A stretch of DNA of 12,415 nucleotides, from positions 1 to 12,415 of the forward strand of contig JACQZL010000302.1 of the NCBI GenBank assembly GCA_016213865.1, written 5' to 3'. Made by a program: the position numbers and the translations under genes. The stretch is from Candidatus Rifleibacteriota bacterium (GTDB lineage Bacteria; UBP17; UBA6191; JACPRK01). Shown piece after piece: positions 7,012 to 12,415 of this stretch; positions within the stretch are counted from its first letter, which is position 1; the number at the start of each line of letters is the position of its first letter. The notes beneath the pieces are model-generated. The model was not told the DNA's origin, did not search any database, and saw only the letters and a list, made by a program, of their open reading frames with translations.

Positions 7012-8916
7012 TTACCCGGTCCGCTTGCCCCTGAGCAGGTGGTACTTCTTGATGACCTTCTTGAGGTCCGCCACCTTGAAGGGCTTGTCGATGATGTCGA
7101 AGGCGTCGAGGCCGAAGACCTCCTTGGCCATCGAATCTTCGAGGCTGCCGGTCACGATGACGACCGGGAGGCCGGGCTGGATGGCCTTGAGGCGTTTGAA
7201 GGTGTCGATCCCGGAGATCTTCGGCATCTTCAGGTCGAGGAAGACGATGTCCACCCGTTCGCTCTTGACCGCCTCGATGGCGTCGAAGCCCGAGGAGAAT
7301 TCGGAGACGATGTGGTTGTCGTTGAGGAAGATCTCCTTGCAGAGGGCCCGGATGTCGTCCTCGTCGTCGACCAGCATCACGCGCAGCCGTTCCTGATCCT
7401 CGGCCACTAGCTGGGCCTCCTCGGCCTTGGGCTTCACGTCGCCCTGCTCGTGCTTGGGAAGGGTGATGTGGAACGCGGCGCCCTCGCCCGGGCGGGACTC
7501 GAGGGACAGGGTCCCGCGGTACTTGTCGACGATGTTCTGGACGATCGCGAGGCCCAGGCCCGTGCCCTTGCCCGATTCCTTCGTGGTGAAGAAGGGCTGG
7601 AAGATCTTCTGCTGGATCTCGGGCGGCACGCCGGGGCCGGAGTCCTGGATGACCACCCGGATGGTGGTCTCGGAGTTGACGGTCTTGATCGTCAGGGTGC
7701 CGCCGGTCTTCTCCATGGCGTCCTTGGCGTTGACGATCAGGTTGAAGAAGATCTGCTGCAGCTCGCTCTCGTTGCCCCAGTAGGGTGGCAACATCGAGGA
7801 GTACTCGGTCACGACCTTGATGTTCTGCACCAGGAGCTGCTTGCCCAGCAGCTCGAGGGTCTCGCTCAGGGTCTGGTTGACGTTGATGGGGACGATGTCG
7901 ACGTCGGACTTTCGCGAGAACTTGAGGAGGTTCCCGACGATGGTGCGGCAGCGCTCGGCCTGGCGCTGGATCTTGAGCAGGCTGTCGTTGGCGGTCTTCT
8001 CGTCGGGCTTGGATTCGAGCAGCAGCTCGCTGTAGCCGAGGATGACCGAGAGCGGGTTCTTGATCTCGTGCGCGACCCCGCCGGCCAGCAGGCCGATGGC
8101 CGCGAGCTTCTCGGAGTGGATGAGCTGTTCTTCCAGGCGCTTCTTCTCGGTGATGTCGCGGCAGAGGACGATGACGCCCTGCAGGCTGTCGTCGTTTCCG
8201 AAGAGCGGGTGCGTGCCGAAGCCGACCAGGGTCGTGCCGAAGCCGACCATCCGGGTCTCTCCGTTGGCCTGCATCTCGATCTCCTGGTAGTCGAGGTTGT
8301 GCACCGACGAGAGGGTCTCGCGAATGATGGGCAGCAGCGGAGCGAGCGTCGGAAAGTCGGTCACCTGGTGCCCGCGGGCCGACTGGGAATCCAGGCCGAA
8401 CAGCTTGGCCGCGGCCGGATTGATCAGATAGATCTTGTAGCTCGTGTCGACGACCATCAGGCCGGACACGAGACTCTGGATGATGTTGTGGAGCGAGAAG
8501 TTGTCCTTGCGGAGCTCGGCCGTGAGCCGGCGGTTCTCTTCCAGGACGCGGTAGTGGTCGTAGGCTTGCTTGATGAAGATGCGAAGCTCGGCCACCTCCC
8601 AGGGTTTGCGGATGAAGCCGTAGATCTGCCCCCGGTTGATCGCGTCCGCCAGGGCGTCGATGTCCGGGTACCCGGTGATAAGCATGCGGACGATCTCCGG
8701 GTACTTCTCGCGGACCTTGACCAGGAGCTCGCTGCCGGTCATCCCCTCCATGTGGTAATCGGCGAGCAGCACATGGACCGGCTGGCGAGAGACGAGCTCC
8801 AGCGCCTCCGGTCCCGAGGACGCGGTCAGCACGTCGTACTGCGGGACGAAGATGCCGCGGAACAGCTCCAGTATGCGTTCCTCATCGTCGACGACGAGAA
8901 TCGTTCCCTTGTCCAT
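7012..8916 (-). CDS. Soluble hybrid sensor histidine kinase, REC-PAS-HisKA-HATPase-REC
   Basis: This 634-residue cytoplasmic phosphorelay kinase has no signal peptide or membrane helix. An N-terminal receiver (5-120) carries the acidic pair D10/D11, phospho-acceptor D53 in LLADYHM, T81 and K104. A short helix leads to a PAS domain (about 143-255, with GLMVVDTSYKIYLINPAAAKLFG) ending in the classic CRDITEKKRLEEQL junction. The HisKA box has the phosphorylated His283 in GGVAHEIKNPLSVILGYSELL. The HATPase domain (378-487) has N396 in NLIVNAKDAM, DSGPG (425-429), FQPFFTTK and GKGTGLGL (449-456). A second receiver (511-628) has D516-D518, D561 in FLDLKMP, T589 and K611. All key residues are intact. 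The start is ATG 8916 with GGAGGT (8925-8920) just upstream. There is no DNA-binding output and no partner regulator next door, so its target is elsewhere. The N-terminal receiver suggests input from another kinase. Confidence 0.96.
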   Translation of the reverse strand: MDKGTILVVDDEERILELFRGIFVPQYDVLTASSGPEALELVSRQPVHVLLADYHMEGMTGSELLVKVREKYPEIVRMLITGYPDIDALADAINRGQIYGFIRKPWEVAELRIFIKQAYDHYRVLEENRRLTAELRKDNFSLHNIIQSLVSGLMVVDTSYKIYLINPAAAKLFGLDSQSARGHQVTDFPTLAPLLPIIRETLSSVHNLDYQEIEMQANGETRMVGFGTTLVGFGTHPLFGNDDSLQGVIVLCRDITEKKRLEEQLIHSEKLAAIGLLAGGVAHEIKNPLSVILGYSELLLESKPDEKTANDSLLKIQRQAERCRTIVGNLLKFSRKSDVDIVPINVNQTLSETLELLGKQLLVQNIKVVTEYSSMLPPYWGNESELQQIFFNLIVNAKDAMEKTGGTLTIKTVNSETTIRVVIQDSGPGVPPEIQQKIFQPFFTTKESGKGTGLGLAIVQNIVDKYRGTLSLESRPGEGAAFHITLPKHEQGDVKPKAEEAQLVAEDQERLRVMLVDDEDDIRALCKEIFLNDNHIVSEFSSGFDAIEAVKSERVDIVFLDLKMPKISGIDTFKRLKAIQPGLPVVIVTGSLEDSMAKEVFGLDAFDIIDKPFKVADLKKVIKKYHLLRGKRTG

Positions 8917-9457: not shown

Positions 9458-11548
9458 CTACTTCTCCGGCAGCACCAGCGTCACGGTCCGCAAGTTCCTG
9501 CGAGAGACGACGTGATCGAAGAGGCGGCGTGACGTGAGCCAGCCTTCGTAATCGCCCGGAGGCAGCACACCTGGGCCCAGGCTCAGGGTCACCAGCGACC
9601 AGGCCTCGCTCCGGCGCGCGGAAAGGACATTCACGATGGGCAGGACCAGGGCCCGCGCCGCCGGTCCCGGCTTCAGATGGAGGAGGAACGCCGACTGGGC
9701 GTCCAGTTCGTCGACCGTCGCCACGAACCGGACAGGCCCCGTCAGCCCGGCCGGAAGGCGAAACCGTGCCAGAGGCTCGCGCTGGCGGATCCGGTCGGTC
9801 GTCTCGAGGTACTCCACGAGACCGTCGAGCTTGCGCTTCGTCTGGACGTTGTCGTAAGCCCAGGTGTCGGAGTTGCCCGTCACCGCCAGCAGCGGAATCC
9901 GGACCAGGGGTGGCGGGAAAGCCTGCTCGATGGCCCGCAGAAGGGCGGTCTCCGACCCGGTCGCCGCGCTCCCGGTCAGCCTCGTCGTCTGATAGGCGAT
10001 GCGCCCCGAGAGCTTGGGCAAGACGCCCAGGGGGCCCGGCCGGTTCCAGGCTTCGTGGCAGAGGTCATACCGCAGCATGGAGAGGAGCTCCTCTCCATGG
10101 TTCACCCGCTCGTCCCAGGAGAGGTGCGGACCCAGAAAGGTCTCGGGGGCCGTCTTGACCCGCGTCAGGCACGCCGCCAGCAAGCTCGAGGCGGCGGCCC
10201 GCCCTTCGGCCTCGAGGAGTCCTGCTCGCTGGGCCGAGGTGGCTCTGGTGATACGGGAATCGAGCACCTCGGCCCTGTTGCTCGGCGCAAAGGCCCTGAG
10301 CGCCAGGGTGAGGTTGCCCGGCTCGGGGGCCGCGAGGGCTGCCGTCGCTCGATTCGAAGTCAAAGGACTCACTGGGGCTGCCGAGGTCGCGGTCCGGATC
10401 GCCGGGGCGCCGGTCCTGCCGGGTTCCGACGGCGAGTCGGAGTCCGTGCGAGGTCCGGTAACGTAGAAGCCCCCGGCCGCGCCGAGGGCCAGCGCCATGC
10501 ATACGCCTGCGGCGGCGAGCAACGATCGCACCCCCGACTGCCGGGGGCCTCCGGGGGCCGTGCCTGACGCCGGCCCCGTCTCCACCCTCCCCCTCCGGGG
10601 GAGGGCCGGGGTGGGGACCGCTTGGGCCGGTCCGGGCGACGGGGAAGACGCCTTCGCGGGGGCCTCTGCCTCAGGAGCGGCTCGGGCGGAGGCGTCAGGG
10701 GGAAGGGCCCGTCGCTGGACCGCCGAGCGGCGTTCGGCTGCCTTGAGGTCGGCTTCCAGCTCGTCCGGCGTCTGGTAACGGACCGCGGGGTCCTTTTCGA
10801 GACAGTTGAAGACGAAGTTGACCAGCGCGGCCGGGATGGCGTTTGCTTCCACCGGCAGGGGAGGAGGTTGCTGCTTGACGATCATCGGGAAGACCTCGGT
10901 GGGGGTCTTGCCCTCGAAGGGAAGCCGGCCGGCGAGCATCCGATAGAGGATGACGCCGAGTGCCCAGATGTCCGCGCTGGGACTGACGGTGGCGCCGCGC
11001 AGGAGCTCTGGAGCGAGGTAGGCCGGGGTGCCGACCAGGCAGTGCTCGCGAGTGATGGGGGTGGCGTGCAGGTCCTTGACCAGGCCGAAGTCGGTCAGGA
11101 TGGCCCTTCCGCTGCCATCGATCATCACGTTGGCCGGCTTGAGGTCCCGGTGGATGAACCCCAGCGGCATGTAGTACTTGAAGGCAGCCACGATGTCCCG
11201 CGCCACGCGCAGCGTCATCGAGATCGGCTGGACCGGCTTTTCATCGAGAAGTTCCTGGAGGTCGCGCGCCCGGAGCAACTCCATCGCGTAATAGAAGACG
11301 CCCTGTTCGTGCCCGTAGTCGAAGACGCGAACGATGTTGGGGTGGGAGAGGCGGGCGCAGCTCGAGGCCTCTCTCAGGAACCGCTTGGCCAGGTCCCCCT
11401 GGGGGTCGACCGACTCCTCGCGCAGGACCTTGAGGGCCACCTCGCGGCCCAGCTCCTCGTGAACGGCGAGGAAGACAGTGCCCATCCCTCCGCGTCCGAG
11501 GACGCTCTGGACCAGGTACCTGCCCAGGCGTTTGCCTTGGTTGGTCAT
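9458..11548 (-). CDS. Membrane-anchored Hanks-type serine/threonine protein kinase
   Basis: This 696-residue protein has a cytoplasmic kinase domain (about 10-270) with every catalytic element. These are the Gly-rich loop LGRGGMGTVF (17-26), Lys40 in VALK, Glu60 of helix C, HRDLKPAN (Asp135, Asn140), DFG (153-155) and APE (179-181). Arg before the catalytic Asp makes it an RD kinase, likely activated by activation-loop phosphorylation (Thr163/Thr166/Thr174). A Pro/Ala-rich linker (280-340) contains ALPRRGRV, which is encoded by a GC palindrome shared with position 12-32. One transmembrane helix (about 341-363) is followed by a predicted periplasmic domain of about 330 residues that I do not recognise; it is not PASTA, WD40 or TPR by eye. 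The last 90 residues look beta-rich (ending NLRTVTLVLPEK). ATG 11548 is the start; the leader lacks a Shine-Dalgarno. No phosphatase or obvious substrate is adjacent. Confidence 0.94.
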   Translation of the reverse strand: MTNQGKRLGRYLVQSVLGRGGMGTVFLAVHEELGREVALKVLREESVDPQGDLAKRFLREASSCARLSHPNIVRVFDYGHEQGVFYYAMELLRARDLQELLDEKPVQPISMTLRVARDIVAAFKYYMPLGFIHRDLKPANVMIDGSGRAILTDFGLVKDLHATPITREHCLVGTPAYLAPELLRGATVSPSADIWALGVILYRMLAGRLPFEGKTPTEVFPMIVKQQPPPLPVEANAIPAALVNFVFNCLEKDPAVRYQTPDELEADLKAAERRSAVQRRALPPDASARAAPEAEAPAKASSPSPGPAQAVPTPALPRRGRVETGPASGTAPGGPRQSGVRSLLAAAGVCMALALGAAGGFYVTGPRTDSDSPSEPGRTGAPAIRTATSAAPVSPLTSNRATAALAAPEPGNLTLALRAFAPSNRAEVLDSRITRATSAQRAGLLEAEGRAAASSLLAACLTRVKTAPETFLGPHLSWDERVNHGEELLSMLRYDLCHEAWNRPGPLGVLPKLSGRIAYQTTRLTGSAATGSETALLRAIEQAFPPPLVRIPLLAVTGNSDTWAYDNVQTKRKLDGLVEYLETTDRIRQREPLARFRLPAGLTGPVRFVATVDELDAQSAFLLHLKPGPAARALVLPIVNVLSARRSEAWSLVTLSLGPGVLPPGDYEGWLTSRRLFDHVVSRRNLRTVTLVLPEK
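10585..10605. repeat. REP-like GC palindrome inside the kinase coding sequence
   Basis: Perfect 9-base arms (ccctccccc and gggggaggg) flank a TCC loop. The 21-base core is the exact inverse of 12-32. It encodes linker residues of about 315-321 in the Ser/Thr kinase, between the kinase domain and the transmembrane helix, where a neutral in-frame insertion would be tolerated. Confidence 0.75.
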
Positions 11549-11563
11549 GGGCGAAAAAAGTCG

Positions 11564-11592
11564 TTGACTTCTCGGTATCGCGATGATAGCAT
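11564..11592 (+). promoter_or_regulatory. Sigma70-type promoter of the putative noncoding RNA
   Basis: TTGACT (11564-11569) is followed after 17 bases by TAGCAT (11587-11592). The -35 matches 5 of 6 bases and the -10 matches 4 of 6. Transcription would start near 11599, running away from the kinase gene. It lies within the 5' leader region of the kinase, so the two transcription units are divergent and closely packed; a weaker TATCAT (11588-11583) on minus could be the -10 of the kinase. Confidence 0.6.
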
Positions 11593-11598
11593 CGCACC

Positions 11599-12160
11599 CC
11601 TCCGAACGGAGAGGCAGCCGACAAACGGGCGGGGTCGCCCGGAGGATGCCAGTAACGTTCGAAGGACGGCGCGCAGTTCTGCAGGACCAACCGCCGTAAC
11701 GCCGGCAGGCCCGAGGGACCGGCGGGGCGGCAGCCCGAAAACTGAAGTGGCCCTGGGATCCTCGTGTACCCGAGGATGTGGTTGGACAAGGATCGACCGC
11801 GGGATGCGGGCGGAAACTGATCGCAGATCAGCGAAAGCCCAGTGCATCAGGTCCTTTGAAGCAAAGGTACTGAAGGCAGGAAAGGCCCCCGAACTGCCCC
11901 GGCCAGAGGGTTCAAAGACTGACGCCGGCCCTCTTGGCAACCAAGTTCCGTCTGGCGCCAAGCTCGACGGGAAGCGATGGCCTCAATTCCCGCTCGGCAC
12001 GAAACAAGCGGAACAACGCCGTCAGCAGGTCATCTTCGAAGAGCCAGGTCTCGAAAGAAACCGCGCTCTCAGAAGACAGGTGGATGGACCCAAGAGGGTC
12101 AAGGCCCCGCGAAAACACATCCCCTGACAAGCCCCCTCGCCCCAAAGGCGTGGGGGTTTT
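11599..12160 (+). ncRNA. Putative large structured noncoding RNA (about 560 nt), family unknown
   Basis: The stretch is bounded by a promoter (11564-11592) and an intrinsic terminator (12132-12160). In between I count consecutive stems: ctcc/ggag (11600-11611); ggca/tgcc (11613-11650) enclosing cgggcg/cgcccg (11626-11641); acggc/gccgt (11666-11697); cgccgg/ccggcg (11700-11724); atcctcg/cgaggat (11758-11777); ctgatc/gatcag (11817-11831); cagt/actg (11840-11872) enclosing cctttg/caaagg (11853-11867); gccagaggg/ccctcttggc with one bulge (11902-11938); ccgtc/gacgg (11948-11970); gaccc/gggtc (12087-12100). Linkers are A-rich on the plus strand (gaaaactgaa, ggaaactga, gcgaaagc, gaaacaagcggaaca, gcgaaaac), as expected for unpaired RNA. 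The longest ATG frame inside (11804-12127) has only about 60% GC at third positions and uses rare codons, unlike neighbouring genes. I found no signature of RNase P RNA, tmRNA, SRP RNA or a self-splicing intron. Exact ends and function are unknown. Confidence 0.65.
12132..12160 (+). terminator. Rho-independent terminator of the putative RNA
   Basis: ccccc plus cgcc (12132-12136 and 12138-12141) pair with ggcg plus ggggg (12147-12150 and 12152-12156). There is one T-T mismatch and a CCAAA loop, followed by TTTT. This gives a GC-rich stem of nine pairs oriented for plus-strand transcription. Confidence 0.75.
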
Positions 12161-12314
12161 GCCATTCCACGGCCCAGGCGGCGGGCTGTCGGGTCCGGCC
12201 CCGGACGCGGCCAGGTCCGCTTGTGCCCAGGCTGCGCCCAATGGCATTAAATCCTCATGGTTCCCATCTCCTGCCATGGATTTGCCGGCGAGGCCGCAAC
12301 GACAGCCACGCCGC
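12161..12314. other. Intergenic stretch without recognised features
   Basis: There is no convincing gene, promoter or structured repeat between the RNA terminator and the terminal inverted-repeat element. The short frames here have no signal peptide, domain or coding bias. Confidence 0.5.
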
Positions 12315-12410
12315 AAGGTAGAAGCGGCTTCCAGCCGCTTTTTGGGCGCCTGGTCACACGATAGCGATTTGCCCGGACTTGTGGAAGCGGCAAGATGCCG
12401 CTTCTACCTT
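12315..12410. mobile_element. MITE-like inverted-repeat element
   Basis: This 96-base element is bounded by perfect 14-base terminal inverted repeats, aaggtagaagcggc (12315-12328) and gccgcttctacctt (12397-12410). Each end also folds on its own: aagcggc-TTCCA-gccgctt (12322-12340, followed by a T-run, so it could terminate plus-strand transcripts) and gaagcggca-AGA-tgccgcttc (12384-12404). It carries no coding capacity. No target-site duplication is evident, and the window ends 5 bases later. The layout resembles a non-autonomous miniature element or paired REP (BIME-like) unit. Confidence 0.7.
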
Positions 12411-12415
12411 TCCGA

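Follow-up and report, generated by a model that had tools for sequence, protein, structure and literature searches.

A candidate new family of large structured noncoding RNAs, present in several copies per genome in Wallbacteria and Riflebacteria

The window, that is, the whole 12,415-nucleotide stretch of contig JACQZL010000302.1 analyzed here, carries a histidine kinase gene (positions 7012-8916), a Ser/Thr kinase gene (9458-11548) and, beyond about 11550, a region with the features of a separate RNA gene on the plus strand. The C-terminal part of the Ser/Thr kinase (residues 270-696) had no relative other than itself among the 7996 candidates scored, and no relatives of this kinase were found in viral contigs. 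About 150 nt past the predicted RNA lies an inverted repeat (12315-12410; AAGGTAGAAGCGGC...), which on visual inspection resembles a REP or MITE; its 26-nt arms are 88% complementary and separated by 44 nt.

A promoter scan of positions 11400-12415 found one sigma-70-type site, on the plus strand at 11564-11592, consisting of the -35 hexamer TTGACT (11564-11569) and the -10 hexamer TAGCAT (11587-11592) separated by 17 nt. This site has 9 of 12 consensus matches, with a mean of 0.1 such sites in shuffled sequences, and bears out the optimally spaced promoter proposed in the preliminary description of this DNA. The pattern TTGAC-N, exactly 17 nt, TA...T recurs in all 13 full-length copies of the region (see below), with TTGAC at the same position. 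The predicted transcript would start at 11599, 7 nt past the -10 hexamer, and extend to 12160 (562 nt). The intrinsic terminator that had been proposed at the other end was only partly upheld: a terminator scan of the region found none, including at the hairpin at 12129-12160, which is followed only by TTTT, but the hairpin is present and its position is kept in 13 of 13 full-length copies. We credit it as terminator-like because the homologues keep it at the same place, not on account of the scan. All 13 copies end in this G+C-rich hairpin, in which 6 of 14 pairs show both-side changes among the ten aligned copies, and a short, often imperfect T tract follows it (TTTTT in three copies; TTCT, TTTCT or TTTTC in others; CTCTC, and slightly later TTTTTT, in one). 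Outside the unit from promoter to terminator hairpin, conservation across the copies fades.

The pronounced codon-position GC signal that marks the kinase gene is lost at about 11550, and the RNA apparently encodes no protein. In frame 2, the window copy is free of stops over 175 of its 187 codons and copy G33C89 over 169 of 215, whereas in the remaining 11 full copies no sense frame stays open for more than 136 codons; because the long stop-free frame is confined to these two, no frame is conserved across copies. In an alignment of ten copies, 113 of 152 internal gap runs have lengths that three does not divide. The gap-run lengths and the frames that are not kept open together form the pattern of a structured RNA rather than that of a protein gene, in line with the initial view that the region is non-coding. 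The adenine excess noted earlier on the plus strand was also recovered (A 0.22-0.27 against T 0.13-0.14 in three 300-nt windows between 11551 and 12150).

The sense strand folds with a minimum free energy of -263.2 kcal/mol, compared with -234.1 +/- 7.1 for shuffled sequences (z -4.08; none of 100 as good). The complement of the RNA region also folds stably (z -3.70), as does the alignment of complements (-122 against -52 +/- 5 in 50 shuffles), so the strand is not given by folding alone; the plus strand was assigned because of the promoter, the terminator hairpin and the better sense energy.

Homologues were reached through the histidine kinase gene, which is also the basis for placing the window taxonomically and whose nearest relatives are 85, 80 and 72% identical; the 80% relative belongs to the Candidatus Wallbacteria metagenome-assembled genome (MAG) NC_groundwater_1055 (L001, here G001). 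Blastn of the RNA region identified near full-length relatives in G001 and in Wallbacteria NC_groundwater_677 (G003, L005), with E-values of about 1e-60, and a relative found in these two genomes, used as query, yielded five copies in G033, a genome of the same phylum group. A covariance model (R1) of 135 central positions then reached two copies in Riflebacteria NC_groundwater_1567 (G002, L003), and its successor including these two (R2) reached five in that genome; both models were built without the near-identical copies G3C157 and G3C108. All homologues come from MAGs, those of G001, G002 and G003 from groundwater. Altogether, there are 13 full-length copies, the window copy and 12 others in four MAGs of the Wallbacteria/Riflebacteria group: two in G001, two in G003, five in G033 and three in G002 (G2C570, G2C466 and G2C172). 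Thus, the candidate new large structured RNA proposed in the preliminary description was confirmed, with the correction that it is a multi-copy family and not a one-off, and the family is almost certainly real, as judged from these comparisons.

The nine Wallbacteria-type homologues are 66-70% identical to the window copy. Full copies range from 546 to 675 nt and differ mostly in the length of their arms: a long additional 5' arm is seen in one copy, an insertion of 21 columns in P14 in one, and an added arm in the 3' domain in five of the ten aligned copies. The closely related G003 and G033 share two RNA copies, 99% identical and in the same positions. Four further copies are partial, namely, G1C133 (5' part), G1C68 (core), G2C55 and G2C203. 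Of these, G2C203 (L135:6397-6608) comprises the core and the 3' hairpin, and G2C55 (L147:6376-6817) has TCGACC as its first hexamer; both lack the 3' domain and retain the 3' hairpin. The partner strand of the PK2 pairing described below was searched for in these two short variants and not found. They would be either dead copies or functional short forms.

Within the phylum group, four of the 39 genomes have accepted copies, and among the remaining genomes none was accepted. At an E-value of 0.1, R1 had hits in 8 of the 39, the hits in G010, G022 and G039 being weak and outside the four accepted genomes; R2 had hits in 5 of 39 at 0.01. A model hit in G027 was discounted (20.5 bits, A+T-rich, no other family motif seen). 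In each genome, the model runs scored 8 to 85 candidates, taken from first-look lists that ran to thousands in some cases. On this basis, the Elusimicrobia group gave one hit in 247 genomes at 1e-4 (22.9 bits; by eye, a protein gene), the Deltaproteobacteria group 4 in 377 (22.5-25.2 bits) and the Acidobacteria group one in 396 (21.8 bits), each of the latter five in an open frame of more than 120 codons, which in G+C-rich DNA is weak evidence against a hit; the Myxococcales group gave none in 195 genomes at 1e-6 among the candidates scored. In ten mixed genomes, R1 found two hits at 0.01 (22.2 and 17.7 bits), one of them in G045. As far as this weak test goes, model hits outside the Wallbacteria/Riflebacteria group looked like chance. 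Blastn of the RNA region gave no match in 50,697 phage records and none in plasmid records, and two exact patterns from the RNA had no matches in IMG/VR.

Comparison of the copies shows that a predicted secondary structure is conserved. For the ten-copy alignment (A2), which consists of Wallbacteria-type copies and excludes those of Riflebacteria, RNAalifold gave a consensus energy of -174 kcal/mol, whereas 100 alignments with shuffled columns averaged -85 +/- 6 (z -14), and in 47 of the 137 predicted pairs at least one copy is changed on both sides. Adding the PK2 helix and removing one conflicting helix resulted in a structure of 22 nested helices and one pseudoknot helix, with 140 pairs. 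In this structure, 49 of 140 pairs show both-side changes (22.1 +/- 3.2 in shuffles), 95.3% of 1391 cells are paired (88.3% in shuffles) and the covariation score is 0.309 (0.166 +/- 0.008 in shuffles); none of 500 shuffles reached any of these values, although the structure was derived from the same ten-copy alignment and the shuffles ignore relatedness. Sliding the partners by 1-3 columns reduced the paired cells from 95% to 34-48%, a control that favours the structure because the structure comes from that alignment. Two of the ten rows (G3C157 and G3C108) are near-duplicates; they were kept in the energy and pair counts and left out of the candidate-helix scan. Compensatory changes, which had been named as a check, are abundant among the homologues in this predicted structure. 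Outside the ten-copy alignment, the Riflebacteria copy G2C570 folds alone with z -6.8.

In the window copy, the fold begins with P1 (11599-11608/11656-11665), which encloses P2 (11613-11619/11644-11650) and P3 (11626-11631/11636-11641); 9 of 21 pairs in the 11599-11665 unit show both-side changes. It is followed by the P4 hairpin (11667-11696; both-side changes in 9 of 11 pairs), with the palindromic tip CUGCAG at 11679-11684, and by P6 (11700-11724), with the well-conserved internal CAGGCCCGAGGGA. The apical loop of the P9/P10 hairpin (11749-11783) holds the 5' strand of a putative pairing, PK1, and the large loop of the P15 hairpin (11902-11938; both-side changes in 4 of 11 pairs) holds that of a second one, PK2. 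The 3' domain includes the P21/P22 hairpin (12080-12124), the site of the extra arm in half of the aligned copies.

In PK1, UGUACC in the P10 loop (11765-11770) faces GGUACU (11866-11871) within GGUACUGAAGGCA, a 3' strand that is invariant in the ten A2 copies. The usual P10 loop strand is AGUACC, and the window copy, with a U-U opposition, forms five of six pairs; the other 13 of the 14 copies holding both strands form all six. The Riflebacteria versions are GCUUCG/CGAAGC and GCGUCG/CGACGC, so that five of the six positions are changed on both sides among the variants. PK1 was first noticed by eye and then checked, and its support comes from four copies in one Riflebacteria genome because the pairing is invariant in Wallbacteria-type copies apart from the U-U of the window; the last G of the Riflebacteria loop strand is also part of a predicted stem. 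In PK2, CUGACG in the P15 loop (11919-11924) faces CGUCAG (12020-12025) in a linker about 100 nt downstream. Of 13 copies, nine form six pairs and four form five, with one A-C mismatch, and three of six positions show both-side changes. The variants are CUGACG/CGUCAG (seven copies), CUGUCG/CGACGG (G33C89), CCGACG/CGUCGG (G2C172), CCGAUA/CAUCGG with five pairs (two Riflebacteria copies) and CUGACG/CGCCAG with one mismatch (two copies). PK2 was chosen by eye from 60 candidate helices, many of them necessarily due to chance, before the Riflebacteria copies were examined. Comparison shows PK1 and PK2 to be two conserved loop-to-linker pairings of Wallbacteria- and Riflebacteria-type copies alike. 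Each could form within a molecule or between molecules; the loop-linker pairing found by covariation in ROOL RNA is described as intermolecular (in the part of PMC12286853 that treats it).

The divergent arrangement of the RNA gene and the Ser/Thr kinase gene, which the preliminary description had mentioned, holds in the window but is incidental, as other copies adjoin different genes. The kinase was considered as a partner and rejected; the genes next to other copies encode an ABC transporter, an alpha-2-macroglobulin-like protein, an M28 peptidase, a transglycosylase, a uracil-DNA glycosylase, a GNAT/glyoxalase protein, a methyltransferase, a redoxin with a Prok-RING domain, a DUF2196 protein and others. 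Some copies do have kinase genes at distances of up to several kb. No neighbour gene common to the copies was found, the families being different, and of the 12 full copies for which a gene was called past the RNA, 7 have a convergent gene next downstream and 5 have one on the same strand (genes were called by a simple script, and six frames overlapping the RNA, in the window, L110, L112, L116, L148 and L149, were set aside). Because the neighbours differ between copies, the RNA very probably acts in trans.

Among 30 neighbour proteins compared with Pfam, there was no transposase or nuclease family except for two integrase-like pieces, and no CNNM-type match. Both pieces resemble phage-type integrases and score just below the Pfam cut-off of 27.1 bits: one (L135:6943-7311; 26.8 bits) lies about 0.3 kb from G2C203, and the other (L148:5956-6444; 24.5 bits) about 4 kb from G2C466. 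They leave some room for a mobile history. One of ten neighbours matched a PHROG, a uracil-DNA-glycosylase-like protein, and a tRNA scan of 17 sequences found one tRNA, in one of them, at a distance of 5.7 kb from the RNA.

Several partial similarities among neighbourhoods were observed. Zinc-ribbon-like protein genes stand beside two G002 copies (L136:6803-7567 and L135:5481-6398, with a Prok-RING Pfam match in the first only) and are possibly just a common family in that genome. ABC transporter genes that are 75% identical occur near RNA copies of different genomes, one about 6 kb from the RNA (L117:1059-2651) and one adjacent to it (L110:5331-7256), a partially shared neighbourhood. In both G033 (L111:7448-7834) and G003 (L114:2946-3311), the RNA is followed immediately, in the same position, by a small gene for a repetitive, coiled-coil-like protein with TNSRIDQ repeats.

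All ten Wallbacteria-type full copies carry CUGCAG at the tip of P4; the Riflebacteria copies have UCUAGA there in G2C570, G2C466 and G2C55 and UCCGGA in G2C172. Palindromes in the apical loops of A2 are found in P4 (UGCA) and P10 (GUAC, within the PK1 strand), in 10 of 10 copies each; in the remaining apical loops checked, they occur in at most one of ten copies each, and the GUAC of P10 is absent from the Riflebacteria copies. The local fold of P4 has a 5-nt loop in G2C172 (CCGGA) and in G33C135, the 5' fragment G1C133 is without CUGCAG, and UCCGGA is also found elsewhere in several other copies. Adjacent bases of one loop cannot pair together in the same chain, and the switch from palindrome to palindrome in P4 therefore points to a contact between two molecules. 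For OLE and GOLLD, such loop switching is taken as support for intermolecular kissing in the relevant part of PMC12286853. That the RNA forms a homo-dimer or a larger assembly is a proposition with nearly even prospects, argued from one loop that was noticed post hoc.

The reading that we prefer, and consider slightly favoured on balance, is that of a stand-alone, trans-acting structured noncoding RNA that belongs to a new family, has paralogues as well as a sigma-70-type promoter and terminator hairpin of its own, and is joined through P4 into a homo-oligomer. The RNA would fold into a compact particle in which PK1 and PK2 lock one molecule or bridge neighbours, and two or more molecules would join via the self-complementary P4 tip into a homo-dimer or larger assembly, in a manner likened to that of OLE, ROOL and GOLLD. 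Because the ten Wallbacteria-type full copies have identical P4 tips, paralogues could mix into hetero-assemblies. The particle might be a scaffold, a cage, a means of sequestering a protein or RNA, or a catalyst; scaffolding or sequestration by an abundant RNA is the first guess, given that the number of paralogues and their consensus-like promoters hint at a need for high dosage. The fuller proposal, of a new class of chromosomal, multi-copy, self-assembling Wallbacteria/Riflebacteria RNA that uses P4 kissing and perhaps PK1/PK2 bridges and is unrelated to OLE, ROOL and GOLLD, is more tentative and falls somewhat short of an even chance.

The same RNA could instead be a monomer, part of a complex with protein or a catalyst, in which PK1 and PK2 are intramolecular and the P4 palindrome is incidental. 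This is unlikely, if to be taken seriously: long, strongly conserved stretches such as GGUACUGAAGGCA would suit it, and raiA RNA, also large, is a monomer in the structure reported in PMC12286853, but the palindromic P4 tips in three versions would be left unexplained and no protein gene was seen travelling with the copies. A mobile or guide-type RNA, left behind or carried along by a transposon- or integron-like system and dispersed and truncated by movement, is an improbable source of the pattern. The scattering of 2-5 copies in each genome, the four partial copies, the closest G001-G033 pair (85%) without a common neighbour gene, and the sub-cut-off integrase-like pieces near G2C203 and G2C466 are consistent with movement, whereas the otherwise transposase- and nuclease-free set of 30 scanned neighbours, the end of conservation at the promoter and terminator hairpin, and the two copies in the same positions in G003 and G033 speak against it. 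Still less probable is a long trans-acting base-pairing RNA or a protein sponge comparable to CsrB; the gene is stand-alone with several paralogues, as such an RNA might be, but the tertiary-type constraints of PK1 and PK2 and the long conserved stretches do not fit, and a repeat search of 11400-12415 found no direct-repeat family. A cis-acting leader or riboswitch of the downstream gene, to which the terminator-like 3' hairpin and the same-strand gene in 5 of 12 full copies might point, is very improbable in view of the convergent gene in 7 of 12 and the differing neighbour families.

Last, a diverged RNase P RNA, tmRNA, 6S RNA or other Rfam family, or a protein gene, is barely credible despite the similar size range and the one nearly open frame of the window copy, as there is no Rfam match, no frame is kept across copies, and the known RNAs have their matches elsewhere in the four genomes. 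With Rfam 15, nothing in the window reached the gathering score, as anticipated by the earlier failure to recognize a known RNA; 11500-12415 gave only six sub-threshold hits (E 0.6-9.4), with OLE, ROOL and GOLLD not among them. The 13 homologue contigs searched (the G2C203 contig was left out) had nothing at gathering score, and neither RNase P RNA, tmRNA nor 6S RNA matched at the RNA locus. RNase P RNA was detected once per genome in all four genomes, at other places; tmRNA exceeded the cut-off in three, also elsewhere, with weaker split matches in the fourth; and 6S-like matches occurred in all four, over the cut-off in one, all elsewhere.

Few bacterial noncoding RNAs of such size and complexity are known. 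The raiA motif (ModT), likewise a large structured noncoding RNA, has an Rfam model, which the new RNA does not match. The raiA RNA was resolved as a monomer, according to the section of PMC12286853 devoted to it. OLE resembles the new RNA in being about 600 nt long and non-coding, with an elaborate fold and highly conserved stretches, and in a palindromic loop switching that is read as a self-kissing contact (PMC12286853, in the part on OLE). It differs in that the OLE gene immediately adjoins the gene for the membrane protein OapA (PMC11332333), and no CNNM-type match was found among the 30 neighbour proteins scanned around the new RNA, which has several copies per genome, belongs to another phylum and has no match to OLE in Rfam. 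OLE forms a homodimer and ROOL an octameric cage; the palindrome switching of P4 is suggestive of a dimer in the new RNA. ROOL, 659 nt in the solved example, is also large, with multiple pseudoknots and no known protein partner, and its loop-to-linker pairing J6/8-L8 is conserved by covariation (PMC12286853); there is again no Rfam match, and the occurrence of ROOL in phages and prophages, often close to tRNA islands (same source), has no counterpart seen around the new RNA, where this context was tested less sharply. GOLLD is a large ornate RNA with self-kissing palindromic loop switching, but many GOLLD RNAs exceed 800 nt and they occur in phages and prophages, often near tRNA islands (PMC12286853, in the part on GOLLD), and the new RNA has no Rfam match to it. 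A literature search, with subscription papers mostly outside it, found nothing pairing Wallbacteria with noncoding RNA or Riflebacteria with an RNA motif.

Because there is no Rfam match, membership of OLE, ROOL or GOLLD by sequence does not apply, and on this evidence the new RNA is not shown to be related to these families and would not be one of them; it may work like them. The best reading is of a previously undescribed family within the loose kind of large ornate bacterial RNAs. The functions of OLE, ROOL and GOLLD are still poorly understood (PMC12286853). A further, apparently unrelated family with 2-5 copies per genome in an uncultured group would provide an independent case on the purpose of such RNAs and would also bear on whether RNA-only assemblies evolved more than once. 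Swapping the P4 tips makes the question of the oligomer testable in vitro from the sequence alone, in an RNA that shares its size, its putative pseudoknots and its palindromic loop switching with such examples.
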